Source: Bacillota bacterium
Lineage (GTDB): Bacteria; Bacillota_I; Bacilli_A; Izemoplasmatales; Hujiaoplasmataceae
DNA length: 37,040 nucleotides
Direction of reading: 5' to 3'
Assembly: GCA_029559915.1 (NCBI GenBank)
Contig: JAKPZU010000171.1
Span: 1 to 37,040, forward strand
Position 1 is the first letter of the stretch. Each line of letters starts with the position of its first letter. Shown piece by piece: positions 9,385 through 37,040 of this stretch. A program made the translations under genes and the position numbers. The notes beneath the pieces are model-generated. The model was not told the origin of the DNA and ran no database searches. It saw only the letters and a program-made list of their open reading frames with translations.

Positions 9385-11232
9385 TTGGACGATATTAAAA
9401 AAATAGATAAGCCAAAGCGGAATATATTTAAACACCTGATTTTAATGTACAGATGGTTGGGAAAGAATTCTCTGCTTTTGATTCCCGCTTTGGCATCATT
9501 GTTCTTAGTTTCATATTTAAGAACTTTAACACCACTTTTCGGACAACATATCATTGACTCGATTTTAAGTGATAAACCATCGAAACTACCTAGCTTTTTG
9601 GCGGATTTGATCCAAGCTGACACTTTGGTAAAGCAATTGTTATTGGCGACTTTATTGTTGTTGTTGATTTCTTTTATCAGAGCTCTTTTCATCTTTGTTG
9701 AAAGAGCAGTTACTGGGGTGTTTGCTGAAAGAACGGCTTATAGCCTAAGAAACAAATTATATGTAAAATTACGTGATGCGGACTATTATTTTCAATCACA
9801 TTTGGAAACTGGAGATATCATCCAGAGATGTACAACGGATGTGGAAATGTATAAACGTTTCATTTCAGAACAAAGCATCGAAGTTGCAAGACTCGTACTT
9901 TTGGTTGGTCTTTCAATTTACCACATGTCAAAACTAAATGTCACCATCATGTGGGTGTCATTGATAATAGCACCAATTCTTTTGGTCAGTGCGGCTTTAT
10001 ATTTCAATAAGGTCGAGAAAATGTTCACGGAAATCGAAAAGAATGAGGCGACCATGACCACTCATGTCCAAGAAAACGTCAGTGGCGCACGAGTCGTCAA
10101 GGCATTTGCAAATGAAGCTTATGAAGTGGAAAAATTCAGAAAGTTGAACCGGACATACACCGATTCCGATCTTAGGTTGGTCAAAAAAATGTCATTTTTC
10201 TGGAGTTCTACAGATTTATTGAGCTTTATTCAATTTTTCATCATTGCGATTATTGGAATAATTTATGCATCAAAAGGTATCATCAGCGTTGGTATTTATA
10301 CTGCATTCTTAGCTTATTCCGGTAATATCATTTGGCCAATGCGACAATTGGGCAGGTTGGTTGGTGATTTTTCGAAGACGGTAGTCTCAGTTTCAAGACT
10401 GGATTACATCATGTCTAACCCTGGTGAATACGTTGACGAAGCCAATAAAATAACACCTGAGATAAAAGGCGATGTTGAATTCAAGAATGTCTCATTCAAA
10501 TTTGCTGATTCCAAGGAAGACCAAATCATTGATGTCAGCTTTAGAGCAAAACCGGGTGAAACCATAGCGATTATTGGCAAGACCGGTTCGGGAAAGAGTA
10601 CTTTAATGAATCTCTTAATCCGGTTATTGGATTATCAAAAGGGCCAAATTTTAATTGATGGTATCGAAATCAAAGATATCGAAAAACATCATTTGCGTCA
10701 AAATGTCGGCGTTATCTTGCAGGAACCGTTCTTGTTCTCAAAATCGGTTGAGGAAAACATAAAAATTTCCGATATGGCTGTCGACAACAACAAAGTATCA
10801 TCGGTAGCTAAGATAGCTCAAGTCCACAATGACATCATGAATTTTGAAAAAGGTTATCAAACCTTGGTTGGTGAAAGAGGTGTAACTTTATCGGGGGGAC
10901 AAAAACAAAGAGTTGCGATAGCTCGTATGCTGTTGAAGCCAAAACCGATTTTGGTTTTTGACGATTCTTTATCCGCAGTAGATACGGAAACTGACGTTCA
11001 AATCAGAAAAGCATTGCAAAAAGAGTGGAAAAATTCCACGGTCTTTATCATAACCCATCGCATCACCACGGCTGCGGAGGCAGATCGAATCTTGGTGATA
11101 GCCGATGGAAAGATTAAAGAAAGCGGAAAACACGAGGAATTGATAAACCGAGAAGGTTTATATAAAAATATTTGGAAAATACAATCACAGATTAATTTCC
11201 AGTTAGAAGAGGATGGTGAGGAAAATGAGTGA
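9385..11232 (+). CDS. ABC exporter half-transporter (TMD-NBD), degenerate-site subunit of a heterodimer
   Basis: 6-TM domain plus NBD; GKTGSGKST, TLSGGQKQR, VFDDSLSAVDTETD (Asp in place of catalytic Glu). Likely TTG start at 9385 after ggagg. Confidence 0.92.
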   Translation: MDDIKKIDKPKRNIFKHLILMYRWLGKNSLLLIPALASLFLVSYLRTLTPLFGQHIIDSILSDKPSKLPSFLADLIQADTLVKQLLLATLLLLLISFIRALFIFVERAVTGVFAERTAYSLRNKLYVKLRDADYYFQSHLETGDIIQRCTTDVEMYKRFISEQSIEVARLVLLVGLSIYHMSKLNVTIMWVSLIIAPILLVSAALYFNKVEKMFTEIEKNEATMTTHVQENVSGARVVKAFANEAYEVEKFRKLNRTYTDSDLRLVKKMSFFWSSTDLLSFIQFFIIAIIGIIYASKGIISVGIYTAFLAYSGNIIWPMRQLGRLVGDFSKTVVSVSRLDYIMSNPGEYVDEANKITPEIKGDVEFKNVSFKFADSKEDQIIDVSFRAKPGETIAIIGKTGSGKSTLMNLLIRLLDYQKGQILIDGIEIKDIEKHHLRQNVGVILQEPFLFSKSVEENIKISDMAVDNNKVSSVAKIAQVHNDIMNFEKGYQTLVGERGVTLSGGQKQRVAIARMLLKPKPILVFDDSLSAVDTETDVQIRKALQKEWKNSTVFIITHRITTAAEADRILVIADGKIKESGKHEELINREGLYKNIWKIQSQINFQLEEDGEENE

Positions 11233-13075
11233 TTACCTTCAAGATGAAGAGAACTTCACGTCCCAAAAGTTTGATTGGTTAGTATGGAAAAAAATCTTGG
11301 CTTTTATGAAGCCATTAAAGAAATACGCTATTATGGGGTTATTAGCCGTCATTGTTTTGGCTGTCACCGATGTCATTTACCCTTATATTTCCGCTTTTGC
11401 AATAGATGATATCATCACGCCGAATATTGAAAACGGCACTCAAGATTTATCAAAATTACCAATATTGATTACTTATTTCATCATTTTTATGATAGTTCAA
11501 GCAGCAATGGTTTATTTATTTATCTTGTTTGCCGGTAAGGTACAAAACGAACTAGCTTTCAGCATTAGGGAAAAAGCCTTCAATCATTTGCAGGAACTGC
11601 CATTCTCCTACTACGATAGAACTAGAGTCGGTTGGATTATGGCAAGAATGACTTCGGATTCAAGAAACCTCAGTGAAGTATTATCATGGGGATTAATTGA
11701 CTTGGTTTGGGGTCTTTTCTTGATGATTTTCTTAACGATTTTCATGTTCATCATCAAGTGGCAATTGGCTTTGGTAATCTTGGCTGTCGTACCGCTTTTG
11801 ATGGGGGTTGCCATCTTTTTCAGAAAATACATTTTGAAGGCATACCGTTCAATCCGAAAAGTCAATTCAAAAATTACCGGTGCTTTCAATGAAGACATCA
11901 CTGGTGCGGTAACCACTAAAACTTTGGTCTTGGAAGAGCAAAACTATCAAGAATTCGATAAATTGACTAGAGACATGCGTCAACAATCAATTAGGGCGCA
12001 TCTATTACAAGGAGTTTTCTTTCCGACAATGTTGTTCATCATTTTCATCGGGATGGCGATGGTTTACAATATCGGTGGCAACATGGTTCTAAATGGCGCC
12101 ATCTCAGTCGGTACCTTATATTTGTTTACCAACTATGTCTGGCAGTTCTTTGATCCGGTTAATAATATTGCGAACTTTTATGCTCGTTTTCAGCAAGCTC
12201 AAGCTTCGGCTGAAAGAATCGTTTCTTTGATTGAAACTGTTCCTGATATCGTCGATAAGGATGAAGTTATTGCAAAGTATGGCACGATTTTCGATTATAA
12301 AACCGAGAATTTTGAACCGCTTATTGGCGATGTCGAATTCAAGAACGTTTCCTTCAAATATAATGTCGGTGAACAAGTCTTAAGTGATTTCAATCTCAAA
12401 GTCAAAGCCGGCCAATCTGTGGCTTTAGTTGGTCACACTGGTGCTGGAAAAACCACAATCGTTAATTTAATCTCAAGATTTTATGAACCAACATCCGGAG
12501 AGATCCTGATTGATGGCATTGATTACCGTGAAAGATCGATTGGTTGGTTGCATTCAAATCTTGGTTATGTCTTACAAACACCGCATTTATTCAGCGGTTC
12601 AGTGATGGAAAATATTCGTTATGGCAATTTAAAGGCAACGGATGAAGAAGTTATTGAAGCAGCTAAAGCTGTAGAAGCTCATGGATTTATTGTCAAGTTT
12701 GAAAATGGCTATGATACTGAATGTGGTGAAGGCGGCTCAAGGTTGTCGGTTGGACAAAAACAATTGGTTTCCTTCGCTAGAGCGATCTTGGCTGATCCCA
12801 AAATTTTAATATTGGATGAAGCTACTTCAAGTGTTGATACAGAAACCGAACAACTGATTCAAAATGCCATCCACAAATTGCTCAAGGGCAGAACTTCATT
12901 TATCGTAGCGCATAGACTATCGACTATCGTTCATAGCGATTTGATTTTAGTTCTTGATGACGGTAAAATCATCGAATCAGGTAGCCACAGGGAACTGATA
13001 AAAAAAGAGGGCGCGTATTACAAATTATATACTAACCAATATTCTGAAGAAATGTTGGAGTTATCTAAACGTTAA
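11225..13075 (+). CDS. ABC exporter half-transporter (TMD-NBD), partner subunit
   Basis: GHTGAGKTT, RLSVGQKQL (altered C-loop), ILDEATSSVDTETE; overlaps the previous gene by 8 nt. ATG 11225. Confidence 0.93.
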   Translation: MSDYLQDEENFTSQKFDWLVWKKILAFMKPLKKYAIMGLLAVIVLAVTDVIYPYISAFAIDDIITPNIENGTQDLSKLPILITYFIIFMIVQAAMVYLFILFAGKVQNELAFSIREKAFNHLQELPFSYYDRTRVGWIMARMTSDSRNLSEVLSWGLIDLVWGLFLMIFLTIFMFIIKWQLALVILAVVPLLMGVAIFFRKYILKAYRSIRKVNSKITGAFNEDITGAVTTKTLVLEEQNYQEFDKLTRDMRQQSIRAHLLQGVFFPTMLFIIFIGMAMVYNIGGNMVLNGAISVGTLYLFTNYVWQFFDPVNNIANFYARFQQAQASAERIVSLIETVPDIVDKDEVIAKYGTIFDYKTENFEPLIGDVEFKNVSFKYNVGEQVLSDFNLKVKAGQSVALVGHTGAGKTTIVNLISRFYEPTSGEILIDGIDYRERSIGWLHSNLGYVLQTPHLFSGSVMENIRYGNLKATDEEVIEAAKAVEAHGFIVKFENGYDTECGEGGSRLSVGQKQLVSFARAILADPKILILDEATSSVDTETEQLIQNAIHKLLKGRTSFIVAHRLSTIVHSDLILVLDDGKIIESGSHRELIKKEGAYYKLYTNQYSEEMLELSKR

Positions 13076-14570: not shown

Positions 14571-14657
14571 GCCAGTATGGTGAAATTGGTAGACACGATG
14601 GACTCAAAATCCATTGCCCTTAAAAGCGTGTCGGTTCGAGTCCGACTACTGGTACCA
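14571..14657 (+). tRNA. tRNA-Leu (anticodon CAA)
   Basis: GCCAGTA...TACTGGT acceptor arms, GGTAGACACG D-loop, anticodon loop CTCAAAA, long variable arm, GTCGGTTCGAGTCCGAC T-arm, encoded CCA. Confidence 0.95.
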
Positions 14658-24160: not shown

Positions 24161-25723
24161 ATGAAGAAAAAGTTTAACTTGAGGATTCTATCCACAAGCG
24201 ACATTCATGGAACGATTTTAGCGAAGAATTACGCTGACAATTCTTTAACATGTAGCGGTCTTTCGGTAGTAAGTTCTATGGTAAAAAAGGAACGGACTCA
24301 AAGCACAATACTGCTTGATGTCGGTGATGACTTACAAGGAAATCCTTTGATGTACTTTCATCAACTTAATCGCAATAAGTATAAAAATCCTTTAGTGGAC
24401 GTCTTTAATTATCTAAAATACGATTATTTTATTCCAGGAAATCATGATTTTAATTATGGTCTAGATTATCTCCAGGATTTCATAGGTGATTTGAATGCCT
24501 TGACTTTATGCGCCAATATCCTTGATTCTAATGATGCTTTATTGTTTAAGAATGCTTATGATATTATCGAATTTCCTAATGGACCAAAAGTCTTGATTGT
24601 TGGGGTAACCACTCAATATATTCCTAATTGGGAGAATCCAAGTTATATTAAAGATATCAAGTTTATCAATGCTTTTGAATCCGCAAAGCAATTAGTCGAC
24701 AGATTCAGAAGTGAGGTTGATTTGGTAGTAGTTGCTTATCATGGCGGTTTTGAAAAGGATTTACATACCTGGGAAAAATTTGTCGAAGACACAGGTGAAA
24801 ATTTGGGATCTTTGATGTTAAAGGAAATTACGGGGATTGATGTATTGATTTCTGCTCATCAACATCGTCACTTGAGCGAAAAGATAAATGACACATTAGT
24901 AATTCAAAGCGGTTCAAAAGCTGATAGTTTGGGTGTGTGCGATATTGAATTCAATTATCGGGACAAATGGGTTGTCACCAAAAAGGATAACAAACTTTTG
25001 ACTTCTACAGGTTATCCGGTTGACGAAGGAGTAGTTGAACTGGTCAAGGACATTGAAGCGGATTGTCAGAATTTTTTGGATCAAAAGATTGGAAATGTCG
25101 TTTCTGACAACTTGAAAATAGACGATATGTTCAGCGCCAGACTTAATAAACATCCAATTGTCACTTTTATCAATAAAGTGCAGCTGTTTTATACAAAAGC
25201 CATGATTTCCGGTACTTCATTGCCTAATGATGTCACTGGCTTTGAAAAGGACATCACAATCAGAAACGTGCTTTCAACCTATGTATATGCAAACACTTTG
25301 GCGGTTTTAGAGGTCAATGGCGGTATTTTGAAACAAATATTGGAAAAAAATGCAGAATATTTTATTTGTGCTGAAGGAAAAATTGCGGTCAATCCCAGAT
25401 TTGTTTATCCTAAAGTCCAACATTACAATTATGATATGTTTGACGGAATTGATTACTTAATTGATATCGATAAGGATTTTGGCGAAAGAATTGTGGAAAT
25501 TAAGTACCAAAACAAGCCCATTAAAGCCGATGATTTATTTACCTTGACTGTCAATAATTATCGCGCCAGTGGGGGCGGAGATTTCGCAGAATACAAAAAA
25601 CTTAAGGTTATCAGGGTTTTGCCTTTTGATATAACGGAATTAATCATCGACTATATCGTCAAAAATAGAAATTTGACTATCAAAGATGAAAAAAATATAA
25701 AGATAATCAGTGAAAATTGTTGA
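24161..25723 (+). CDS. 5'-nucleotidase / metallophosphatase family protein without obvious signal peptide
   Basis: LRILSTSDIHGTI, DVGDDLQGNPLMYF, PGNHDFNYG, ISAHQHRHLS and C-terminal 5_nucleotid_C-like NNYRASGGGDFAEY. Confidence 0.9.
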   Translation: MKKKFNLRILSTSDIHGTILAKNYADNSLTCSGLSVVSSMVKKERTQSTILLDVGDDLQGNPLMYFHQLNRNKYKNPLVDVFNYLKYDYFIPGNHDFNYGLDYLQDFIGDLNALTLCANILDSNDALLFKNAYDIIEFPNGPKVLIVGVTTQYIPNWENPSYIKDIKFINAFESAKQLVDRFRSEVDLVVVAYHGGFEKDLHTWEKFVEDTGENLGSLMLKEITGIDVLISAHQHRHLSEKINDTLVIQSGSKADSLGVCDIEFNYRDKWVVTKKDNKLLTSTGYPVDEGVVELVKDIEADCQNFLDQKIGNVVSDNLKIDDMFSARLNKHPIVTFINKVQLFYTKAMISGTSLPNDVTGFEKDITIRNVLSTYVYANTLAVLEVNGGILKQILEKNAEYFICAEGKIAVNPRFVYPKVQHYNYDMFDGIDYLIDIDKDFGERIVEIKYQNKPIKADDLFTLTVNNYRASGGGDFAEYKKLKVIRVLPFDITELIIDYIVKNRNLTIKDEKNIKIISENC

Positions 25724-25823: not shown

Positions 25824-25837
25824 TGTAAGCGCTTAGA
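25824..25837 (+). promoter_or_regulatory. Candidate catabolite-responsive element (cre) in the leader of the molybdenum hydroxylase operon
   Basis: TGTAAGCGCTTAGA matches the cre consensus TGWNANCGNTNWCA at 13 of 14 positions, with core palindrome TAAGCGCTTA. Confidence 0.55.
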
Positions 25838-25847
25838 AGGAGTGAAT

Positions 25848-26402
25848 ATGATCGAAGGCATCATTTTAGCAGGCGGATACTCTTCTAGATTCAAACAGAA
25901 TAAAATGGTTGTGAATTTCAAAGGTCAAGCTTTGATACTTCATACTGCGCAGACACTCCTAAAAATATGTGACCATGTCTATGTTGTCACTGGTCATTAT
26001 CATGAAGAAATAAAAATATTGTTCAAAGATTATTCAAACATCACGATTGTCAATAATAAGGATTATCAGGAAGGGATGTTCTCTTCGGTAAAATGCGGCG
26101 CGAGTCATGTTAAACATGATTTTTTTATCATACCCGGAGATTATCCTTTGGTAAGCGACACAACTTATAAAACCTTACTGAAGGGTAAAAAAACGATAAG
26201 GGTTCCCAGTTATAAGCATAAACTGGGTCATCCGCTATTTATATCATATAGTTTGAAAGATGATTTGATTGATACTGATGTTGAAAGCTTAAAAGACTTT
26301 CGTAATCTCCATGATTACGAGATTATCGAAGTTGAAGATCAATTCATCAACTTCGATATTGACACAATAGAAGATTTAGAAGAAATTGAGGGAAAGGAAT
26401 GA
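25848..26402 (+). CDS. mocA: MocA-like molybdenum cofactor cytidylyltransferase / NTP transferase
   Basis: IEGIILAGGYSSRFKQNKM nucleotidyltransferase motif, IIPGDYPLVSDTTYK, GHPLFIS; adjacent to molybdenum hydroxylase subunits. RBS agaaggag before ATG 25848. Confidence 0.85.
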   Translation: MIEGIILAGGYSSRFKQNKMVVNFKGQALILHTAQTLLKICDHVYVVTGHYHEEIKILFKDYSNITIVNNKDYQEGMFSSVKCGASHVKHDFFIIPGDYPLVSDTTYKTLLKGKKTIRVPSYKHKLGHPLFISYSLKDDLIDTDVESLKDFRNLHDYEIIEVEDQFINFDIDTIEDLEEIEGKE

Positions 26403-27199
26403 TTTTTATGGAGGTAAAGGAATTAATTAGAGCGATTGATGCAGAAGCAGCTTATACTTTATTGAATGAATTTAAGGGGAGTAAAGTTATGGCTGGTGGT
26501 GCATGGATGAAACTGTCAGTTAAGTCGGTAGATAAATTGATTCTTTTGGATGATTTGAATTTGGATTACATTAAGGAAGAAAACGAATATTTGGAAATTG
26601 GCGCTATGACTTCCCTTAGAACCATGGAAATGCATCCAACCATTAAGAGTTTAAATTCAGGTATACTGGCTAAAGCCATCAAATCGATAATGGGCGTTCA
26701 AGTCAGAAATGTGGCAACCATTGGCGGTAGCGTCATGGGCAGATTTGCATTCAGTGATATATTGGGGGCTTTATTGGTCTTGGACTGTCGGTTGTATTTT
26801 CATGAGTTGCATGAAATCTCGCTTTTCGATTTCCTGCAAATGCCGAAAGTTCCGCGCGATATCTTATTGAGTATAAAAATCAAGAAGTCATCGGGAAAGG
26901 GTTACTTTCATAAAGTCAGTAAAACTCATTTGGACTTTTCCCTTTTGAACATTGCCATTACCAAGAATGAGCTGTTCAAGATTGCTATTGGTTCAAGACC
27001 GCAAACAGCGACACTTGCAATCAGCACTGCAAATTTCTTGAATTCGCAAAGTGTGATTAACGAAGCAATAATCAAGAAGGCGGTCGAGATTGCCTGCGAT
27101 GAAATTAAGGTTTCCACAAATCTCAGAGCTTCCAAGGAATACCGTGAAGTTTTACTGAAAACATATTTAACTCGAGGTCTTTTAGAGGTGATAAAATGA
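26399..27199 (+). CDS. Molybdenum hydroxylase FAD-binding subunit (CoxM/XdhB/YgfM-like)
   Basis: VMAGGAWMKLSVK, LEIGAMTSLRTME, VQVRNVATIGGSVMGRFAFSDILGALLVLDC; ATGA overlap with mocA. Confidence 0.9.
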   Translation: MIFMEVKELIRAIDAEAAYTLLNEFKGSKVMAGGAWMKLSVKSVDKLILLDDLNLDYIKEENEYLEIGAMTSLRTMEMHPTIKSLNSGILAKAIKSIMGVQVRNVATIGGSVMGRFAFSDILGALLVLDCRLYFHELHEISLFDFLQMPKVPRDILLSIKIKKSSGKGYFHKVSKTHLDFSLLNIAITKNELFKIAIGSRPQTATLAISTANFLNSQSVINEAIIKKAVEIACDEIKVSTNLRASKEYREVLLKTYLTRGLLEVIK

Positions 27200-27648
27200 A
27201 AATCAACTTAAGAATCAATGGCCAATCAAGGCAATTCTTGATTGAACCAAATGAATACTTGCTTGATGTTTTGAGAAAAAATGATTATTTGAGTGTTAGA
27301 AGAGGTTGTGACAACACCAGTTGCGGTGTTTGTACAGTTCTAATTGACAATAAACCCGTTCCTTCTTGTAGCGTCTTAGCTGCACGATGTGAAAACAAAG
27401 AAATTACGACAGTTGAAGGCATTGAAAAAGAAGTGGAAAAATTAGCAAAGTATTTTGGCGAATTGGGAGCTGATCAATGCGGTTATTGTAATCCTAGCAT
27501 GGCACTGACGGTTTATTCCCTAAAACTGGAAAATAAAAATGCGAACATCGAAGAGGTAAAAGAATATTTGGTTGGCAATCTCTGCCGTTGCACCGGCTAT
27601 GTTGCACAACATGAAGCAATCATGAAATATTTGGGTGATGAATCATGA
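27196..27648 (+). CDS. Molybdenum hydroxylase 2x[2Fe-2S] subunit (CoxS/XdhC-type small subunit)
   Basis: RRGCDNTSCGVCTVLIDNKPVPSC and ADQCGYCNPSMAL...GNLCRCTGY cluster motifs. Confidence 0.96.
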   Translation: MKINLRINGQSRQFLIEPNEYLLDVLRKNDYLSVRRGCDNTSCGVCTVLIDNKPVPSCSVLAARCENKEITTVEGIEKEVEKLAKYFGELGADQCGYCNPSMALTVYSLKLENKNANIEEVKEYLVGNLCRCTGYVAQHEAIMKYLGDES

Positions 27649-29960
27649 AAGTTGTAAACAATTTAACTCATTCCATTGATGGAATGGGCATAATGAAGGG
27701 CAGAAAAGCTTTTACTGATGACTTTGCGGAAAAGGATACTTTAATCGTCAAAGTTATGCGTTCACCATATGCATATGCTAAAATTCTCAAGATAAACGAT
27801 TCTGAAGCACGGAAGCTGGAAGGAATCGAAATGGTTTTAACCCATAAAGATTTTAAAAGGATACCTTTCACTAGAGCTGGGCAGGGCTATCCAGAACCTT
27901 CGCCTCATGACAAGTTTGTCTTGGATGAATATGTAAGATATATCGGCGATGAGGTTTTGGCTGTAGTTGGCAGAAGTGACGAAATTTGCGATAAGGCTTT
28001 GTCATTGATCAAGGTAGAATACGAAGTGCTGGAGCCAGTATTAGATTTTGAAACAGCAAAAGATAATCCAATAGTAATTCATCCTGAAAATGAGATTCAT
28101 GAGATGTTTGACATCGGTTTCGAACCCAAAAGAAATATAGCGGCTAGTTATGCGATGGAAATTGGCGACGTAAAAAAGACTTTGAGTGAATGTGAATACG
28201 TTATCAAGGAAACATTCTATACCCAAGCGCAAGCACATGTGATGCTTGAACCGCATACGGTTAATGCCCGTATGGATTATCAAAACAGACTATGCATCTA
28301 TTCTGCGACGCAAACACCTTTTCATGTCCGAAGAATCATCTCGCAAGGGCTGGAAATTCCTCTATCAAAAATAAGGGTCATCAAACCAAGAGTTGGCGGG
28401 GGATTTGGCGGGAAACAGGCAATTCATGGCGAGATGTTGGTAGCCTATGTAACTTATAAAACCAATAAACCAGCGAAAATGATTTATTCAAGGAAAGAAG
28501 TTTTTGAATCTTCATATTCCCGTCATCCAATGCGAATCGAGATGACTTTGGGAGCGGATAAAGATGGGAAATTAAAAGCGATAAATTGCGAAGGCTTATC
28601 AGATACCGGAGCTTACGGCGAACATGCGTTGACAGTTTTCATGGTAACTGGTTCAAAGGTTTTGCCGTTATACAATAAAGTCGATTCAGTTAGATTTGCC
28701 GGCGACATCGTCTATACAAACCATACTCCAGCTGGCGCCTTTAGAGGTTATGGAGCAATTCAAGGCAATTTCGCTTTGGAATCGGCTGTCGATATTCTTT
28801 GTAAAAAGATGAAGATGGACCCAATTCTTTTTAGACAAATCAACATGATGAAAGAAAAAGAAACGTCACCTATTTTTGCAATCATGGGTGAAGGTACTGC
28901 CGGTACTGCCATGATTATGGAAACATGCAAATTGGAAGAATGTATTGAAAAAGGCATGGAATTAATCGGTTGGAAAGATAAGTATCCAAGAATTGAAAGT
29001 AAGGATAAAATAAGATCTGTCGGCATGGCTATAGCGATGCAAGGCAGTGGCATACCTTATATTGATATGGGTAGTGCAACGATTAAGTTAAATGATGACG
29101 GCTTCTATAATTTAATGGTCGGGGCCACAGAGATTGGCCAAGGCAGTGATACGGTTTTAACGCAAATTGCCGCAGAAGAATTGATGACTACGGTTGACAA
29201 GGTGGTAATTTATTCCTCTGATACCGACCTTACACCTTTTGATGTGGGGGCCTACGCTTCAAGTACGACCTATATCTCAGGAAACGCAGTTTGGAAAGCC
29301 GCGAAAGAATTAAAGGAAAAAATGATTGTCGAAGCCGCGAGAATATTGAAAACAAATATAGAAAACATTGATTTTGATGGCAAGACATTCACCAATAGAG
29401 TTAGTGGTGAGAAAATTACCTTGGTTGATTTATCAAATCAGATAACTTACTCTCATGAACAAAAGCAATTACAGGTAACTTCAAGTTATGTAGGACACAA
29501 GTCGCCACCGCCATTTATGGCTGGTTTCGTTGAAATTGAGATTGATAAAGCCACATACGAAATTGATATTCTTCACTATGTCAGCGTCGTCGATTGTGGC
29601 ACAACCATCAATCCGATGCTTGCCAAAGGTCAAGTTGATGGCGCTATCGTCCAAGGTTTAGGTATGGCGCATTTTGAAGAAGTGATTTATGGCGCTAATG
29701 GAAAACTGATTTCCAGTGATTTGTTAAATTACAAGATACCTACAAGACTTGACATCAAGAAATTGACAACAGTTTTCGTCGACAGTTATGAAGAAACCGG
29801 ACCTTTTGGAGCAAAATCAGTTGGAGAAATCGGCATTGATACCCCGCCGGCGGCTTTGGCCAATGCCGTAGCCAACGCCTTGGGTGTTAGAATAACGACT
29901 TTACCGATTACTTCAGAAAAAATCTTTAAGGAAATGAGGAGAATCAATGATGAAAAATAA
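27645..29960 (+). CDS. Xanthine dehydrogenase-like molybdopterin-binding subunit
   Basis: RVGGGFGGKQAIHGE, AGAFRGYGAIQGNFALE, VGATEIGQGSDTVL, GAYASSTTYISGNAV, KSVGEIGIDTPPAALANAVANALG. Confidence 0.95.
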   Translation: MKVVNNLTHSIDGMGIMKGRKAFTDDFAEKDTLIVKVMRSPYAYAKILKINDSEARKLEGIEMVLTHKDFKRIPFTRAGQGYPEPSPHDKFVLDEYVRYIGDEVLAVVGRSDEICDKALSLIKVEYEVLEPVLDFETAKDNPIVIHPENEIHEMFDIGFEPKRNIAASYAMEIGDVKKTLSECEYVIKETFYTQAQAHVMLEPHTVNARMDYQNRLCIYSATQTPFHVRRIISQGLEIPLSKIRVIKPRVGGGFGGKQAIHGEMLVAYVTYKTNKPAKMIYSRKEVFESSYSRHPMRIEMTLGADKDGKLKAINCEGLSDTGAYGEHALTVFMVTGSKVLPLYNKVDSVRFAGDIVYTNHTPAGAFRGYGAIQGNFALESAVDILCKKMKMDPILFRQINMMKEKETSPIFAIMGEGTAGTAMIMETCKLEECIEKGMELIGWKDKYPRIESKDKIRSVGMAIAMQGSGIPYIDMGSATIKLNDDGFYNLMVGATEIGQGSDTVLTQIAAEELMTTVDKVVIYSSDTDLTPFDVGAYASSTTYISGNAVWKAAKELKEKMIVEAARILKTNIENIDFDGKTFTNRVSGEKITLVDLSNQITYSHEQKQLQVTSSYVGHKSPPPFMAGFVEIEIDKATYEIDILHYVSVVDCGTTINPMLAKGQVDGAIVQGLGMAHFEEVIYGANGKLISSDLLNYKIPTRLDIKKLTTVFVDSYEETGPFGAKSVGEIGIDTPPAALANAVANALGVRITTLPITSEKIFKEMRRINDEK

Positions 29961-30588
29961 TCGAATTGAATTAATCTCAAAAATCTTATTTTTTGGGGCT
30001 ATTTGGGGAATTTTAGAAGCTACTCTCGGCTATGCGCTGCATTTATTGCCAGCTCTTATCGCTGGTAGCGTCATGTTTCCGCTGGTAATGTTCATTCTTT
30101 ACCGGGCATATAAGGCAATTGGTTCAAGAGCTGGTGTTTTGTTAGTTGGAGTTGTCGCTATCATAATCAAGGCGACAAACCTCTTCCTACCTTTCTTGTT
30201 TCCGGCAAAAACCATTAATCCGATGGTGGCGATGTTCATCCAGAGTTTATTGGTGTTTTTAGTTTTGCCAATGCTTGACAATGAGAAAGTTACCGTAAAA
30301 ATCTCGAGTTTTGCAATCGGCAGTTTTTCATGGCGAATCCTGATGCTTTCTTATTATGGTCTCAATTATTTATTGACTGGTTTCATGGATTTAAGAATTG
30401 CTAGTCTCGATGCGGCATTCAGCTTTGTTTTGTGGGAAGGCTTGATTTCACTTGCGGTGATTTCAGGTTTATTCTATCTTACGGGTAAGATTCAAAACTT
30501 GGACAAAATCAATACACAAAGGATTCACCCGCTGTTATCAATGGCGATGATAGCCTTAGCACTGGTCTTGACTTTAGTTAAATTTTAG
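29947..30588 (+). CDS. Integral membrane protein of unknown function within the molybdenum hydroxylase operon (possible transporter/ECF S-component-like)
   Basis: 213 aa with about 6 hydrophobic helices; IWGILEATLGYALHLLP, INPMVAMFIQSLL. Overlaps the Mo-subunit gene by 14 nt. Confidence 0.7.
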   Translation: MMKNNRIELISKILFFGAIWGILEATLGYALHLLPALIAGSVMFPLVMFILYRAYKAIGSRAGVLLVGVVAIIIKATNLFLPFLFPAKTINPMVAMFIQSLLVFLVLPMLDNEKVTVKISSFAIGSFSWRILMLSYYGLNYLLTGFMDLRIASLDAAFSFVLWEGLISLAVISGLFYLTGKIQNLDKINTQRIHPLLSMAMIALALVLTLVKF

Positions 30589-30596
30589 GTGATTTG

Positions 30597-31436
30597 ATGG
30601 ATATATTTAAATTGATTATCGACTTCAAACAAAAGAATATGCCAATAATGGCCGTCACCGCTGTTAAAAAAGAGGGTGCCGGTCCTGTTGAGGTTGGTAA
30701 GAAGATGATAGTTCTCGCGGATGGTAGAAGTTATGGAACCGTCGGTGGCGGTGCTATTGAATATTATGCCAAGGCCAAGGCGGTTGAACTTTTAAAGAAT
30801 AAAACTTCTATACTTGAAAACTACATTCTTGATGAAGGAAAAATAATACCAGAAAGCATGACTTTACCTATGGTTTGTGGCGGAATTGTCAGTTTGTTTT
30901 ACGAATATATCGGTCCTAAGGCGACAATCTACATTTTTGGTGCCGGTCATGTCGGTCAAGCTTTGACAAATGTTTTGAAAACGATGAATTATCACGTGAC
31001 TGTCATTGATGAAAGAACTGAAGTTATCGAAAAGTTTATCGGAGCCGATATCTTGGTCAATAAGGGCTTTGTCGATTTTATCGATCAAGACATAATCAAA
31101 GACGGTGATTATATCATTGTCTGTACCCCAAGTCATAAATATGATTATCACGTAATCAATCGCATTCTCGAAAAACAAATCAAACCCAAGTATTTAGGTA
31201 TGTTGTGTTCTCCGGACAAAATTAGAGGTTATTTGACTTCAACATTTGAAAAATTCGGTAAAGATATTGATTTAAGCTTTTTCTACTCGCCAATCGGTCT
31301 TGAACTGGGAGGAATGACTCCTGAAGAAATCGCGATATCAATAGCTGCGGAAATACTGGCACTGACCTATCAAAAAAAAGGTCATAGGCATATGAGGGAG
31401 ACCCTAGATGATAAAGATTGTTACTGGGAAGATTAA
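30597..31436 (+). CDS. xdhC: XdhC/CoxI family Mo-cofactor insertion/maturation protein
   Basis: N-terminal VGKKMIVLADGRSYGTVGGGAIE and C-terminal Rossmann IYIFGAGHVGQAL...GLELGGMTPEEIAISIAAEIL; ATG 30597. Confidence 0.93.
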   Translation: MDIFKLIIDFKQKNMPIMAVTAVKKEGAGPVEVGKKMIVLADGRSYGTVGGGAIEYYAKAKAVELLKNKTSILENYILDEGKIIPESMTLPMVCGGIVSLFYEYIGPKATIYIFGAGHVGQALTNVLKTMNYHVTVIDERTEVIEKFIGADILVNKGFVDFIDQDIIKDGDYIIVCTPSHKYDYHVINRILEKQIKPKYLGMLCSPDKIRGYLTSTFEKFGKDIDLSFFYSPIGLELGGMTPEEIAISIAAEILALTYQKKGHRHMRETLDDKDCYWED

Positions 31437-31875
31437 TTCTCAAAAAAGCACCAGATTATTGGAGTATTACCAAGAACATCCCCAAGGAGATGGGTTTATT
31501 TCCCGTAAAATTATGCAAGGCAATTTGGTTTATGGTTACAACCTTTTACAACTGTCCAATAATAAGTTGATTCCTTTTGTGATCAGGGACATCTATGATG
31601 ACGGCTCTAAAGCCATTATCTGCAAAGTCGGACCTTATCATTTTTATGAGGATGCATTCAATTATGTTGAAGAAATGATTGATGATTTTATAGCTAAAAA
31701 AATCAGTCCGGTCTTTTTGGATGAAATCAGTCTATTGGAATTGAACGATCAGGGATTTCATCAAGTTTTGGTTAAATTGATTGAAAATGACATGGATTTA
31801 TGCTTGGTAGTGAGAGATGATTTGATCAATCAAGTTCTTCATAAGTACCAGATGAAATCAGTAGAGATTATCTAA
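31408..31875 (+). CDS. THEP1-like P-loop NTPase-family protein with altered Walker A
   Basis: IVTGKINSQKSTRLL (Gln where GxxxxGK[ST] has Gly), Walker B-like VFLDEISLLEL, CLVVRDDL; overlaps xdhC by 29 nt. Confidence 0.7.
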   Translation: MIKIVTGKINSQKSTRLLEYYQEHPQGDGFISRKIMQGNLVYGYNLLQLSNNKLIPFVIRDIYDDGSKAIICKVGPYHFYEDAFNYVEEMIDDFIAKKISPVFLDEISLLELNDQGFHQVLVKLIENDMDLCLVVRDDLINQVLHKYQMKSVEII

Positions 31876-31886
31876 GGAGCAAAGCG

Positions 31887-33176
31887 ATGTTCGATAAGGT
31901 TATCCGTAATGGTAAGGTCTTTATCGCCGGTGAGTTTGTTAAAACCAATGTTTATATTGAAAAAGAAGTGATTGCCAAAATCACTCCTGAGGTTTTGTCC
32001 GCAAAAGAAAGTATCGATGTGAACAATGCCTTGGTAATTCCGGCGTTGATCGATCCGCATGTCCACTTTCATCTAGACTTAGGATCGATTCATTCTCGAG
32101 ATGATTTTTATTCCGGGACACTTCAAGCTGTTTATGGCGGAATTACGACAGTGATTGATTTTTTGGATCCCGTCGATAATCCTGTTGACTTGGAAAAGGC
32201 TTATTATAGGCGTTTAGATGAAGCAAAAACATCTGTTTGCGACTATAGTTTTCACGCTACAATCAAGAATCCAAATTGTGATTTGGAAGAGTTTGTGATC
32301 AAGATGAAGAGTTTGGGAATAAATTCCTTAAAGCTCTTTACAACTTATTCCGACTCTAATCGTAGAACCTATGACAATCAAATCATCGAGCTTTTAAAAC
32401 TATCTTCGAAATATGATTTCTTACTTTTGGCACATATTGAAAACGATAACCTGATTGACTTAAATCCAAATTTCAAATATAACTGTCTCTTAAAATCAAG
32501 ACCAACTTTGGCGGAAACGAAAGAAGCATTGAAATTGGCTGCTTTTACCGAAATTAACGGTGGATATTTATATATGGTCCACTTGTCAAGTGGCATTACC
32601 TTGGAAAAACTCAAGAAAGATTTTCCCAGTTTAATCAATAAACGTTTTTTTATCGAGAGTTGTCCGCAATACTTTGCCTTCACCAATGATTTCTTGGAAA
32701 GAGAAGATGGTTATTTATATACTTTGGCTCCTCCTTTAAGAACAAGAAGAGAAAGAACTTTATTGAAAGAAAATTTCAACGATGTTTTTTCTGTCGGTAC
32801 TGATCACTGTGCCTTCAACAAGAAAGATAAAGATAGAAAGTACCTTAAGGATATTCCTCTGGGTATTGGCGGGATTGAAAATTCATTTGATGTTTTATAT
32901 GAGTTTTTCAAGGAAAAAGCAATCGATAAGATGAGTAAGAACATAGCTTCACTTTATCCAAATCTTGTCGGTAGGGGAGAAATCAAAGAAGGAAATCTAG
33001 CTAATTTGTTTATTTACGAACTTTATGATAATTTTATTTCCAAGCACCACGGCAAAACCGACTGTTTCTTATATGACAATTTTAAAAGATCGGGAGAAAC
33101 TGTTCATACCATGAATCGCGGTGAATTCATCATTAAAAATCGTGAGTTTATTAAATCTGTCAGCAAGAAAGTATAG
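31887..33176 (+). CDS. hyuA: Dihydropyrimidinase/hydantoinase family amidohydrolase
   Basis: VIRNGKVF, IPALIDPHVHFHLDLGS, GINSLKLFTTY (carbamylated Lys position), MVHLSSG, SVGTDHCAFN. Confidence 0.9.
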   Translation: MFDKVIRNGKVFIAGEFVKTNVYIEKEVIAKITPEVLSAKESIDVNNALVIPALIDPHVHFHLDLGSIHSRDDFYSGTLQAVYGGITTVIDFLDPVDNPVDLEKAYYRRLDEAKTSVCDYSFHATIKNPNCDLEEFVIKMKSLGINSLKLFTTYSDSNRRTYDNQIIELLKLSSKYDFLLLAHIENDNLIDLNPNFKYNCLLKSRPTLAETKEALKLAAFTEINGGYLYMVHLSSGITLEKLKKDFPSLINKRFFIESCPQYFAFTNDFLEREDGYLYTLAPPLRTRRERTLLKENFNDVFSVGTDHCAFNKKDKDRKYLKDIPLGIGGIENSFDVLYEFFKEKAIDKMSKNIASLYPNLVGRGEIKEGNLANLFIYELYDNFISKHHGKTDCFLYDNFKRSGETVHTMNRGEFIIKNREFIKSVSKKV

Positions 33177-33184
33177 GTGATGTT

Positions 33185-34501
33185 ATGTATGCTTTAATCA
33201 ATGCTCGCTTTTATGATTATAAAAATTATCGGGAGAATGTCTCAATCATTTTTGATGATCATATAAGATTTATCAAGCCAATGAGTGAATACAAAAATGA
33301 TGGATATATTGAAATTGATTGCACAGGAAAGCTTGTTATGCCGGGCTTTGTCAGCGGTCACACTCATTTGTATTCAACTTTTGCCAGAGGCATGATGATT
33401 GAATTCAATCCAAAAGATTTTCTGGATATCTTGAAACAGTTATGGTGGAAGATGGATCATTTTCTTGATTTGGATTTGGTTTATCATTCAGCCTTTATGG
33501 GTGCTCTAGAACAAATGTCTTCGGGCACTACAACGCTTATCGATCATCATGCTTCCGGAACAATAAGTGGTAGTTTGAATTGCATCAAAAAAGCTGTAGT
33601 TGACGAACTTAAGTTAAGAGCGATTTTAGCTTTTGAAACCTCCGATCGTTTCAATGTTTCTTCTGCGATTGAAGAAAATCTGGAGTTCATCGAACATAAT
33701 CAACGAAAGAATGCCAATGGATTATTTGGCATGCACGCATCATTATCTTTAAGTGATGAGACTATGACTAAAATCAGTGCCAAACTCAAGGGAGCCGGAA
33801 TTCATGTTCATGTGGCGGAAAGTTTGCTTGATGAGGAAGATTGTCGGAATAAATATGGAATGAGAGTGGTTGAAAGACTCGAGAGTTTCAATCTCTTGAA
33901 TGAAAAATCGTTGTTGGTTCATTGCACTCACATTGATGAAACTGAGATGGATATCATCAAAAAACATGGGTCAACTATTGCCATCAATATCACTTCAAAT
34001 CTGAATAATGCTGTCGGCATTGCTCAGATAAAGAAATTTCTTGATAAGGGTATCAGGGTCATTAGCGGCAATGACGGGCTATTGCCTTCACAGCCAATAG
34101 AATATTTAAACATCTATTACCTTTCGCATTTATTGGGTAAGTCGCCTACATCTTTCAGCTTAGATGATTTAAAAACCATTATCAACAATACCTATGATTA
34201 TGCAAATAAAATATTGACGACCAATCTCGGTTCCATTAAAGAAGACGCGGAAGCCGATTTGGTCATTGTCGATTTCAATCCTTATACACCTATAACAAAG
34301 GAGAATATTTTCAGCCATGTCTTTTTTGGAGTTTTTCCAAGTTTTAAACCGGAAAAAGTTATTGCCGGAGGCAAGATATTGATTGAAAATTATAAAACCA
34401 AAGAAAATTATCAAGAAAGATTTTCTTTGGCAAAAGAAAAAGCCGATAGATTATGGAAGATAATCGGGAAGGAAGGCAAAAATGTTCGATTTAAGTACTA
34501 G
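33185..34501 (+). CDS. ssnA: SsnA-like putative aminohydrolase
   Basis: VMPGFVSGHTHLYSTFARGM, LVHCTHIDETE, ISGNDGLLPSQPIEYLNIYYLSH, ADLVIVDFNPYTP. Confidence 0.9.
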   Translation: MYALINARFYDYKNYRENVSIIFDDHIRFIKPMSEYKNDGYIEIDCTGKLVMPGFVSGHTHLYSTFARGMMIEFNPKDFLDILKQLWWKMDHFLDLDLVYHSAFMGALEQMSSGTTTLIDHHASGTISGSLNCIKKAVVDELKLRAILAFETSDRFNVSSAIEENLEFIEHNQRKNANGLFGMHASLSLSDETMTKISAKLKGAGIHVHVAESLLDEEDCRNKYGMRVVERLESFNLLNEKSLLVHCTHIDETEMDIIKKHGSTIAINITSNLNNAVGIAQIKKFLDKGIRVISGNDGLLPSQPIEYLNIYYLSHLLGKSPTSFSLDDLKTIINNTYDYANKILTTNLGSIKEDAEADLVIVDFNPYTPITKENIFSHVFFGVFPSFKPEKVIAGGKILIENYKTKENYQERFSLAKEKADRLWKIIGKEGKNVRFKY

Positions 34502-35570
34502 TTTTGATGGCTTAAAATTCAGCAATCCCTTGATGCCTGCAGCAGGACCGCTGAACGGAGATTTGGAAAAACTGGAGTTTTTGGTTTCTCAAGGACTTGG
34601 GGGAATTGTCACCAAGACAATTGCAAGAGCCTTGCCAAATATACCGAAACCATGCATCTATGGCGATAAGACTTTTATCATGAACTCGGAACTGTGGAGC
34701 GAATTGAGTTATGAAGTTTGGGTAAATGAAATTTTACCCAAGTTTCACAAAAGTAAGGATCGGCCTTTAATTATTAGTTTGGGTTATACCAAGGAAGATA
34801 TGGAGTTCTTGGTACCGTTGGTGGAAAAATATGCCGATGCATATGAAATTTCCACTCATTATGTCGGAACTGACTTGACAGTCATTCAAGGGACAGTCAG
34901 GGCAATCAGAAAACATACAAAAAAACCGATATATATGAAGATTAGTCCGCATTTACCTGATCCTGAAGGCTTTGCCAAAGCAATCAAGGAAGCGGGAGCA
35001 AATGGTGTGGTTGCCATTAATTCATTGGGTCCGACCATGAAAATCGATTTAAAAGAAAAAAGCATCATTTATGGCAATGAAAAGGGTTTTGTCTGGACTT
35101 CTGGTCCGGCCATTAAACCTGTAGCTTTGGCCACAGTTTATAAAATCAAGCAAGCTGAACCATCATTGACCGTGATTGGCGTCGGTGGAATCAAAAACGC
35201 TGAGGATGTTTTAGAATTTTTATTAGCTGGTGCTAGTGCTGTACAAATGCTTTCAGCGGCTTTGCTTTATGGTAAGGACCTATATAAAAAAATCATAGCT
35301 GATTTACCAAAAACTTTGGAAAAGTATGGATTTACCTCAATTGAAGAAGTTATTAATCATGGTTTGAAAAAAGAAGTTGTCTATAAACAGTCATTGCCTG
35401 TTTTAGATCGGGACAAATGCATCGATTGCATGTTGTGCGAAAAGATTTGTCCATATTTTGCAATTTCCTATCCTGGTGTAATAACTTTTAATCCTGATAA
35501 ATGTTTTGAATGTGGTCTTTGTATCGCCAAATGTCCAACCGGTGCTATCAGTTATTCTTTGAAGAGGTGA
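34482..35570 (+). CDS. PreA/dihydroorotate-dehydrogenase-like flavoprotein with C-terminal 2x[4Fe-4S] ferredoxin domain
   Basis: FDGLKFSNPLMPAAGP, YMKISPHLPDPEGF, GVGGIKNAEDVLEFLLAGASAVQM; CIDCMLCEKICP and CFECGLCIAKCP. EISTHYVG replaces the ELNxSCPH-type catalytic loop. Confidence 0.9.
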   Translation: MFDLSTSFDGLKFSNPLMPAAGPLNGDLEKLEFLVSQGLGGIVTKTIARALPNIPKPCIYGDKTFIMNSELWSELSYEVWVNEILPKFHKSKDRPLIISLGYTKEDMEFLVPLVEKYADAYEISTHYVGTDLTVIQGTVRAIRKHTKKPIYMKISPHLPDPEGFAKAIKEAGANGVVAINSLGPTMKIDLKEKSIIYGNEKGFVWTSGPAIKPVALATVYKIKQAEPSLTVIGVGGIKNAEDVLEFLLAGASAVQMLSAALLYGKDLYKKIIADLPKTLEKYGFTSIEEVINHGLKKEVVYKQSLPVLDRDKCIDCMLCEKICPYFAISYPGVITFNPDKCFECGLCIAKCPTGAISYSLKR

Positions 35571-35575
35571 TTGCT

Positions 35576-37040
35576 ATGAAAGATATTTCCCAAAGTATCA
35601 ATAAAGTCGATAACGATGAAAAAATTTCCGGTAAAGCCAAATATGTCGCTGACATCAAAATGGAAGGTATGCTTCATGCCTTGACTTTAAGAGCGACTAT
35701 TGCTAAAGGAGAGATTGTTGAAATAATCTACCCAAAGATGCCAGAAGGGTATTTTGTCGTTGATTACAAGGATATTCCGGGAAAGAATGTTGTCAAGGTA
35801 ATATTTGATGACATGCCCATTTTCACTACAGGTAAAATAACTTATCTTTATGAGCCCATCGCTTTGTTGGTTGGCCCGGATAAGCATTTAGTTAATGAAC
35901 TTTTAAAACAGGTAAAAGTAACTTATAAAGAGGAAAAACCATTATTTGATTGGGTTGATAGCGTCATCCATTATGAATTTAAAAAAGGCGAAGGTTTCAA
36001 ACCCGAAAAGGGCGATATAATAATCGAGAAATCCTACGAGACTTCCTATCAGGAGCAACTTTATCTCGAAACTCAAGGAATGATTGGATATATGGAAGAT
36101 AGTGAAAAAATCACTTTGGTGGGATCAATTCAGTGTCCTTACTATGTTAAGAATGCACTCATTCAAGCACTTGACGTCGAAGAAAAGTTGGTAAGGGTCA
36201 TCCAAGCAACTGTAGGTGGAGCCTTCGGTGGTAAAGAGGAATTTCCATCCTTGATTGCTTGTCAATTGGCAGTAGCTGTCAAAAAGATTAAAAAACCGAT
36301 TAGGCTTATCTATGAAAGGGAAGAAGATATACTCTCGACAACTAAACGTCATCCTTCAAAAACCACTTTGAAGGCATTGGTAAGAAATGATAAGATTATT
36401 AGTCTAGCCGTCAAGGTAGGACTTGACGGTGGCGCAAATATCGGTCTGAGCGGTGTGGTTTTATCTCGAGCCTTGATAGCTTCAAACGGTGCTTACACGA
36501 TTGATAATCTTGATGTCCAAGGTGATGTATTCAGAACGAATACCGTTCCCAATGGAGCGTTCAGGGGATTTGGAGCGCCACAAATGATGTTTGCCATTGA
36601 GATGTTTGTTGATCATGTCGCTAAGGAAATCGGAAAAGACTCATTGATGTTTAGAATGAAGCATTTGGCTAAACAAGGCGATTATACATCGACTATGGGG
36701 CTGTATCGCGATCCAATTTTATTGGAAGATATGATTGCCAAGGCAATGGAAGTTTCAGATTATAAAACCAAAAGAAAACTATATGAGCAAAAAGATTGTT
36801 ATAAGGGCATCGGCATGAGTGTTTTCTTCCATGGCTGTGGTTTCACCGGTTCGGGAGAAAAGAATCATATCAAAGCTCGGGTCAAACTCAAGAAACAAGA
36901 TGACGTAGTAGAGATATTGATAGCTGCTGTGGATATGGGTCAAGGTGTAAAAACCAGTTTCAGAAAACTTGTTGCGCATATCCTGGATATTGAGATTGAA
37001 AGAGTTATTTTCAATAATCCGGATACGGATTACGTGCCTG
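35576..37040 (+). CDS. Second xanthine dehydrogenase-like Mo-binding subunit (XdhD-like), 3'-truncated by the window
   Basis: MKDISQSINKVDNDEKISGKAKYVADIKMEG...ATVGGAFGGKEEFPSL...NGAFRGFGAPQMMFAIE...AAVDMGQGVKT. Open to the window end, hence missing from the supplied ORF list. Confidence 0.93.
   Translation, partial: MKDISQSINKVDNDEKISGKAKYVADIKMEGMLHALTLRATIAKGEIVEIIYPKMPEGYFVVDYKDIPGKNVVKVIFDDMPIFTTGKITYLYEPIALLVGPDKHLVNELLKQVKVTYKEEKPLFDWVDSVIHYEFKKGEGFKPEKGDIIIEKSYETSYQEQLYLETQGMIGYMEDSEKITLVGSIQCPYYVKNALIQALDVEEKLVRVIQATVGGAFGGKEEFPSLIACQLAVAVKKIKKPIRLIYEREEDILSTTKRHPSKTTLKALVRNDKIISLAVKVGLDGGANIGLSGVVLSRALIASNGAYTIDNLDVQGDVFRTNTVPNGAFRGFGAPQMMFAIEMFVDHVAKEIGKDSLMFRMKHLAKQGDYTSTMGLYRDPILLEDMIAKAMEVSDYKTKRKLYEQKDCYKGIGMSVFFHGCGFTGSGEKNHIKARVKLKKQDDVVEILIAAVDMGQGVKTSFRKLVAHILDIEIERVIFNNPDTDYVP

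Follow-up and report, generated by a model that had tools for sequence, protein, structure and literature searches.

An eleven-gene operon at the 3′ end of contig JAKPZU010000171.1, from the Izemoplasmatales metagenome-assembled genome (MAG) GCA_029559915.1 (G000), probably supports a self-contained, anaerobic route for fermenting purines from DNA, the reductive urate pathway, operating with a molybdenum cofactor (Moco) obtained from outside; we place the probability of this full explanation at about 0.7. The window examined is the entire contig (C110; 37,040 nucleotides), and the operon runs off its 3′ end. The source lineage comprises wall-less bacteria of sediments. Judged from the predicted proteins, the operon very likely encodes the reductive urate (yanthine) pathway, the components present being SsnA (gene 9), UacX (gene 10), HyuA (gene 8) and a molybdenum (Mo) subunit of the Escherichia coli XdhD (EcXdhD) clade (gene 4, not gene 11), while YgeY and a YgeW-like/OTC protein are present in relatives, the G000 contig ending before their position. 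A preliminary description of this DNA had proposed an anaerobic purine/urate degradation operon akin to the E. coli yge/ygf-xdhD region, and the gene families, their order and the relatives' downstream genes agree with that proposal. Gene content, order and conservation, and the absence of three cofactor-biosynthesis families, were observed directly; every reaction in this organism, the roles of genes 4 and 11 and the import of cofactor are inferred. Overall, the operon itself is ordinary and its pathway known, though built in a lineage-specific way; what was not expected is that genes for cofactor biosynthesis are missing.

G000 is a MAG of 2.49 Mb in 430 contigs, with an estimated completeness of 83% and contamination of 5.5%. 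As it is larger than same-genus genomes (1.2 to 1.6 Mb) and carries this level of contamination, it may contain foreign contigs; the window itself resembles Izemoplasmatales, and gene 4 is 98% identical to a Candidatus Izemoplasmatales homologue. NCBIfam and Pfam profile searches of the window proteins recovered all eleven plus-strand genes (25842-37039) in the order given by the preliminary description, and the operon is borne out by gaps that range from -29 to +11 nt (from mocA to gene 11: -4, -4, -4, -14, +5, -29, +11, +8, -20 and +5 nt). The features are as follows.

24161..25723, +, upstream 5′-nucleotidase/cyclic phosphodiesterase (NF006934, 233 bits)
25824..25837, +, cre-like (CcpA) motif TGTAAGCGCTTAGA, between promoter-like TGTTATAAT and the mocA start
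25842..26402, +, gene 1, MocA-like nucleotidyltransferase of the CTP:Moco cytidylyltransferase family (PF12804, E=1e-28)
26399..27199, +, gene 2, flavin adenine dinucleotide (FAD) subunit of a Mo hydroxylase (PF00941, PF03450)
27196..27648, +, gene 3, 2x[2Fe-2S] subunit (PF00111, PF01799)
27645..29960, +, gene 4, Mo subunit, proposed urate reductase (urate to yanthine; PF02738/PF20256)
29947..30588, +, gene 5, unannotated six-helix membrane protein ("memb"), tentative candidate for a cofactor importer subunit
30594..31436, +, gene 6, XdhC-type Moco-handling/insertion chaperone (PF13478, PF02625, TIGR02964)
31408..31875, +, gene 7, THEP1-type P-loop NTPase (PF03266, E=3e-7)
31887..33176, +, gene 8, HyuA-type cyclic amidohydrolase (TIGR02033, 205 bits)
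33185..34501, +, gene 9, SsnA aminohydrolase (NF005540, 366 bits; TIGR03314, 345 bits)
34482..35570, +, gene 10, UacX (DHO_dh plus two 4Fe-4S; PF01180 + Fer4), candidate yanthine reductase
35576..37039, +, gene 11, Mo subunit, truncated by the contig end, proposed classical xanthine dehydrogenase

Several of these assignments are qualified by their scores. Gene 1 reaches 124 bits against TIGR03310, below the cut-off of 186, and the two families given for gene 9 score best of all families yet lie under their equivalog cut-offs. Gene 10 contains the DHO_dh domain and two 4Fe-4S domains without an FAD/NAD domain, and gene 11 is cut at approximately residue 488 of about 700. The membrane protein and NTPase previously noted as additions to the known gene set are both present: gene 5 found no match in Pfam, in NCBIfam or in a sequence search of the PDB, and gene 7 belongs to PF03266 (NTPase_1; 30.8 bits, cut-off 23.9). 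A PDB sequence search with gene 7 also gave no match; its AlphaFold (AF2) model (predicted local distance difference test, pLDDT, 93.8) was matched by Foldseek to NTPCR (2i3b, E=2e-6) and AaTHEP1 (1ye8, E=1e-4). Regarding signs of a selenium-dependent Mo hydroxylase, gene 6 matches XdhC families and not YqeB, and no YqeC match was found in the window operon. The cre-like motif matches the cre consensus at 13 of 14 positions, a score equalled by 0/300 shuffles, and a like motif lies at a nearly equal distance upstream of the operon in loci L017, L020 and L049. Promoter-like sites were slightly above the shuffled expectation and terminator-like sites equal to it. Rfam detected neither a Moco nor a purine riboswitch, whether in the window or among five related/comparison loci, and identified a tRNA gene at 14571-14654, outside the operon. 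The 5′-nucleotidase/cyclic phosphodiesterase also adjoins the operon in G004, G013, G010, L020 and L037.

Conservation was examined in 61 related genomes, a wider class set of 395 genomes and, for Moco genes, 14 controls. The relatives include three closed genomes of cultured strains, namely zrk29 (H. nucleasis; G022), zrk2 (G028) and zrk13 (X. coldseepsis; G041), as well as a two-contig genome (G045). Gene 4 homologues occur in 48/61 relatives with a near-identical gene order in those loci read on sufficiently long contigs, and the arrangement is thus not due to chance. Downstream of gene 11, relatives carry a further pair of subunits (2Fe-2S, then FAD), adenine deaminase and two pyridoxal phosphate (PLP) enzymes, the first threonine-synthase-like with a zinc-ribbon-like stretch at its N terminus and the second cysteine-synthase-like. 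YgeY, a carbamoyltransferase of the YgeW/OTC type and a homologue of RNA 2′,3′-cyclic phosphodiesterase come next, and a cytidine-deaminase-family protein then lies on the opposite strand. In G004, for example, these include YgeY (TIGR03526, 691 bits), adenine deaminase (602 bits), the YgeW-like/OTC family protein and both PLP enzymes, and in G005 an intact copy of gene 11 (94.7% identical) precedes its own Fe-S and FAD subunits. The carbamoyltransferase of the relatives is 35.9% identical to E. coli YgeW and under the YgeW cut-off. The earlier expectation that ygeY, ygeW, ygeX and carbamate kinase genes lie past the right edge therefore holds in relatives for YgeY and a YgeW-like protein, and in several lineages homologues of carbamate kinase (YqeA) border the locus; no clear YgeX was seen. 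The threonine-synthase-like PLP enzyme is possibly a non-orthologous replacement of YgeX at the last pathway step, to judge from its family and position. A threonine-synthase-like PLP enzyme also sits beside YgeY in G078, where G074 has YgeX (L119, L129). At the gene 10 position, a YgfK of about 1000 residues is found in G013 (TIGR03315, 1318 bits) and G059, and this exchange at one operon position argues for a shared function of gene 10 and YgfK. The respective coordinates are L046 16746-19757, by NCBIfam, and L049 10619-13663, by size and place. The suggested swap of YgfK for a PreA-like protein is thereby upheld, though not as something new, the protein being UacX, known from Clostridioides difficile (PMC12507026).

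The reductive urate pathway was resolved by Li et al. 2025 (PMC12507026), who demonstrated its reactions with E. coli and C. difficile enzymes and made no mention of Izemoplasma or Mycoplasmatota. In their scheme XdhD-YgfM reduces urate to yanthine in vitro, the ring is opened by SsnA with YgfK or C. difficile UacX, and HyuA, YgeW/UacY, YgeY and YgeX then lead to pyruvate. By analogy, adenine and guanine would be deaminated in the present organism, and gene 11, partnered by its Fe-S and FAD subunits encoded beyond the contig end, would oxidise hypoxanthine and xanthine to urate. Reduction of urate to 2,8-dioxopurine (yanthine) would fall to gene 4 acting with genes 2 and 3, UacX (gene 10) would then reduce the ring, SsnA (gene 9) would open it, and HyuA (gene 8) would yield 2,3-diureidopropionate, from which the YgeW-like protein, YgeY and a PLP lyase could produce carbamoyl phosphate, ammonia and pyruvate. 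Genes 1, 5, 6 and 7 would supply the molybdenum cofactor. Hypoxanthine oxidation to urate should release four electrons, and the steps from urate through yanthine to dihydro-yanthine should use four; since these numbers are equal, no external acceptor would be needed from hypoxanthine. With both Mo enzymes in one operon, adenine could be fermented in balance, and guanine would need two further electrons. The assignment would thus explain how purines could be fermented without an external acceptor, and it links a DNA-eating marine-sediment lineage to a newly solved pathway. Wasmund et al. 2021 (PMC8289736), in the text and legend concerning Extended Data Fig. 9, described xanthine-degradation loci in Izemoplasmatales and their synteny with Clostridium loci so named. 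This synteny could point to the xanthinase/glycine pathway of purinolytic clostridia instead, which we regard as very improbable: the operon carries the reductive set (SsnA, UacX/YgfK and HyuA, with YgeY and a YgeW-like protein downstream), and family searches of the operon proteins, the part of the genome to which this search was confined, found no xanthinase. Clusters corresponding to the operon were reported as upregulated in strain zrk13 with thiosulfate and in situ (Zheng et al., PMC8397711), and in zrk29 with DNA and RNA (Zheng et al., PMC10470597).

Which Mo subunit performs which reaction was assessed from scores, residues and a tree. Gene 4 is 35.8% identical to EcXdhD (472 bits) and 34.6% identical to EcXdhA (420 bits), and for the intact G005 copy of gene 11 the order is the reverse (EcXdhA 197 bits, EcXdhD 169 bits). 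The EcXdhD Glu606 loop (FAIMG[E]GTAGTAM) is common to gene 4 and all of its orthologs examined, and is not found in gene 11 or EcXdhA. At the sites equivalent to bovine E802 and R880, which we take to be the purine-binding Glu and Arg of classical xanthine dehydrogenase (XDH), gene 11 reads GGAFGGK[E] and AF[R]GFG, and gene 4 has Q and R. The catalytic Glu base (bovine E1261 position) is seen in the G005 copy of gene 11, the window copy being truncated. A maximum-likelihood tree groups gene 4 with EcXdhD (100/99). On these grounds gene 4 is probably an EcXdhD-type urate reductase and gene 11 a classical xanthine dehydrogenase, and the labels of the preliminary description, in which gene 4 was XdhA-like and gene 11 XdhD-like, look inverted. 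The opposite assignment, with gene 4 as xanthine dehydrogenase (XdhA), gene 11 as an XdhD-type urate reductase and the pathway otherwise unchanged, appears unlikely, although it would account for the best family score of gene 4, which is to XdhA models (643 bits), and for the grouping of gene 11 with Fe-S-Mo fusion proteins found in other reductive clusters. A protein not of the EcXdhD type can also serve, as C. difficile XdhD is 25.6% identical to EcXdhD and has no FAD subunit (PMC12507026). Set against this are the closer similarity of gene 4 to EcXdhD, its Glu606 loop, and the classical XDH Glu and Arg of gene 11 together with its closer similarity to EcXdhA. The loop was also considered as a mark of every urate reductase and rejected as such, the reductive clusters of G109 and G074 having no loop-bearing subunit.

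The unexpected feature of this lineage concerns the cofactor. Profiles for the MoaA C-terminal domain, MoaC and the MoeA N-terminal domain, the only means by which Moco genes were tested, found genes in 11/14 control genomes. Among the 61 relatives, MoaA (PF06463) and MoeA (PF03453) were detected in the same four genomes, and MoaC (PF01967) in those four plus G047. With MoaE, MoaD and MogA outside the search, moaA, moaC and moeA were not found in G000 or any sampled member of its family, nor in the closed genomes of zrk29, zrk2 and zrk13 or two-contig G045. The preliminary description held that a lack of molybdopterin biosynthesis genes would speak against the operon; that lack is largely what we observe, and because the catalytic residues are intact and published transcriptomes show the cluster upregulated, we read it as a cofactor acquired from outside, a view that we favour by a small degree over its alternatives combined. 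MocA acts on Mo-molybdopterin and MoeA inserts Mo. Given that MoeA is missing, the imported form would most simply be finished Mo-molybdopterin, and the absence of moaA, moaC and moeA together suggests that this probably comes from outside. MocA would then probably cytidylate it and XdhC insert it, and the best candidate for its uptake or handling is gene 5, together with the NTPase of gene 7. Synthesis inside the cell by a divergent or unrecognised molybdopterin pathway seems rather unlikely: the absence is defined by the three profile families, yet these succeed in most controls and in four to five Izemoplasmatales, and three unrelated enzymes would all need replacement. Even less credible is that the Mo subunits have decayed to relics or need no molybdopterin to function, a reading suggested by the missing biosynthesis genes and opposed by long intact frames, the catalytic Glu at the bovine E1261 position, molybdopterin-binding motifs and MocA kept across lineages, and by the upregulation of the cluster with nucleic acids (PMC10470597). 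In the few MoaA+ Izemoplasmatales whose moa cluster was read (G049, G391 and G059; L091, L092 and L116), it adjoins tupABC-like genes and an aldehyde ferredoxin oxidoreductase of the tungsten type, and by this adjacency may serve the tungsten enzyme. A limited literature search on bacterial Moco auxotrophy or uptake gave nothing direct and no importer, dietary Moco of Caenorhabditis elegans excepted, and a passage in PMC9793310 describes the movement of the cofactor between cells as poorly understood. For this reason the cofactor question would matter more than the purine part, and it is directly testable in the cultured, closed-genome strains zrk2, zrk13 and zrk29, which have two Mo hydroxylases without moaA, moaC or moeA.

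The gene 5 profile (A2) matches 43/61 relatives and 49/395 class members. All 49 carriers among the 395 have a Mo hydroxylase (Fisher p ~1e-44), and in two other families 10/10 carriers have two Mo hydroxylases and lack MoaA. Among genomes with a Mo hydroxylase, those with gene 5 comprise five MoaA+ and 44 MoaA-, and those without it 11 MoaA+ and 13 MoaA-, a negative association that is not strict (p = 0.0017, relatedness uncorrected); within gene 5 lineages it is kept in 5/8 MoaA+ and 44/46 MoaA- genomes (p = 0.019, relatedness likewise uncorrected). In the contiguous MoaA+ genomes G059 and G367 the purine enzymes remain and genes 5, 6 and 7 are all gone from the operon, and in MoaA+ G397 genes 5 and 7 are gone and XdhC is kept. 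Some MoaA- genomes of another family have also lost genes 5, 6 and 7 from the operon, keeping gene 5 elsewhere. In G011 the operon copy of gene 5 is broken (L093 ~10950-11500) and an intact copy lies beside XdhC on another contig (L088 9062-10628), and in G394, G305 and G132 gene 5 is close to XdhC. In these last three, a small unannotated lipoprotein-like protein intervenes (L082 6697-7302, L084 10207-10746, L085 9912-10451). The AF2 model of gene 5 (pLDDT 86.8; predicted template modelling score 0.83) is no more than suggestive of an energy-coupling factor (ECF) S-component: among the listed matches, only the S-components RibU and ThiT reach a template modelling (TM) score of >=0.45 on both lengths (0.45-0.54), with target-normalised values of 0.54 for 5kc0 and 0.50-0.52 for 4tkr. 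Helix 1 has an invariant GxxxG pattern, in which G17xxxG21xxxA25 resembles a small-xxx-small motif. That gene 5 is a cofactor importer subunit must be considered doubtful, and we are just as hesitant about its transporting the substrate itself (a purine base, urate or xanthine). The latter would fit the lack of any other transporter in the operon, the nature of ECF S-components as small substrate-binding membrane proteins and the strict co-occurrence with Mo hydroxylases (49/49), but it is at odds with the placement by XdhC in G011, outside the purine operon, and near it in G394, G305 and G132, with the persistence of purine enzymes without genes 5, 6 and 7 in G059 and G367, and with the retention of XdhC alone in G397.

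A parallel case was found in MoaA- Bacilli of other families (closed G083, G340, G129, G231 and G384), in which a Peripla_BP_2-type lipoprotein, a FecCD permease and an ATP-binding cassette (ABC) ATPase adjoin the Mo hydroxylase genes (L117 3377-6671, L118 3609-6905, L123 4445-7265, L124 4335-7893 and L125 4592-7858), as established by Pfam for G340 and by sequence likeness for the other four. A PF03266-type NTPase lies upstream of this set in G083, G340, G231 and G384 (L117, L118, L124 and L125), no such open reading frame being listed in G129 (L123). MoaA+ G354 and G392 are without the FecCD-type set and G360 keeps the lipoprotein only, so that the set occurs in 5/5 MoaA- versus 0/3 MoaA+ genomes (p = 0.018), with families f21 and f22 contributing no MoaA+ genome to the sample. 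That a dedicated transporter, mostly with a PF03266 NTPase, recurs in genomes lacking MoaA is the best argument for treating salvage as a serious possibility, and a molybdenum-cofactor salvage system in these bacteria is plausible. It is a tentative further step, which we would put somewhat below even odds, to regard them as Moco scavengers in which gene 5, the THEP1-type NTPase and XdhC form a dedicated uptake and delivery route for Mo-molybdopterin that replaces biosynthesis, other moaA- Bacilli using the FecCD-type ABC importer.

A number of observations weigh against the overall explanation. A search of the fragmentary, 83% complete G000 MAG with the PLP enzyme did not recover the operon's downstream half, and neither of the relatives' two PLP enzymes is a clear YgeX. 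As to the Mo subunits, the tree places gene 11 with Fe-S-Mo fusion proteins (100/99) on long branches, the orienting of urate by Glu606 in EcXdhD is a computational (modelling) proposal, and no Mo subunit with the Glu606 loop occurs in the reductive clusters of G109 and G074. Foldseek gave no significant match of the gene 5 model to the PDB, E-values for ECF S-components being above 1, and the notion that gene 5 is restricted to genomes lacking moaA was rejected, as moaA+ G049, G050, G057, G391 and G308 keep it. Strains zrk13 and zrk29 were reported to grow slowly in a yeast-extract-free seawater basal medium supplied with E. coli DNA, from which it follows that growth as such may not depend on cofactor from outside. 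Finally, G078, G089, G109 and G133 have a Mo hydroxylase, no MoaA match and, in the stretches read, neither import system; salvage by gene 5 or the ABC set consequently cannot be the whole story. These four (L119-L122, L136, L137, L143) belong to another Bacilli family and carry a YgfK-type reductive urate cluster.

Among known transporters, gene 5 is comparable to the ECF S-components RibU, ThiT, HmpT and PanT in size, its approximately six helices, best TM-scores and helix-1 GxxxG, and differs from them in having no significant Foldseek E-value and no PDB sequence match. The FecCD-type loci resemble the present operon in being MoaA- with a dedicated transporter by the Mo hydroxylase and mostly a PF03266-type NTPase and a MocA-like gene; they differ in having an ABC transporter and lipoprotein in place of gene 5, a single Mo subunit and no SsnA or UacX in the stretch read. 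With the reductive urate clusters of E. coli and C. difficile the operon shares SsnA, HyuA, YgeY, a carbamoyltransferase, an EcXdhD-type Mo subunit and MocA, and with that of C. difficile also UacX in place of YgfK. In contrast to both, a single operon holds adenine deaminase together with two Mo hydroxylases that have separate sets of Fe-S and FAD subunits. Its PLP enzymes are unlike YgeX, its carbamoyltransferase falls outside the knotted YgeW equivalog, it additionally encodes a membrane protein (gene 5) and an NTPase (gene 7), and the lineage is without moaA, moaC and moeA. The locus of PMC8289736 is, by its text and legend, from the same bacterial order and the same xanthine dehydrogenase and deaminase region; the passages concerning it do not assign the reductive urate pathway, which was published later, or discuss missing molybdopterin synthesis. 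The pathway itself is known, and what is new here is the modest step of assigning it to this published locus.

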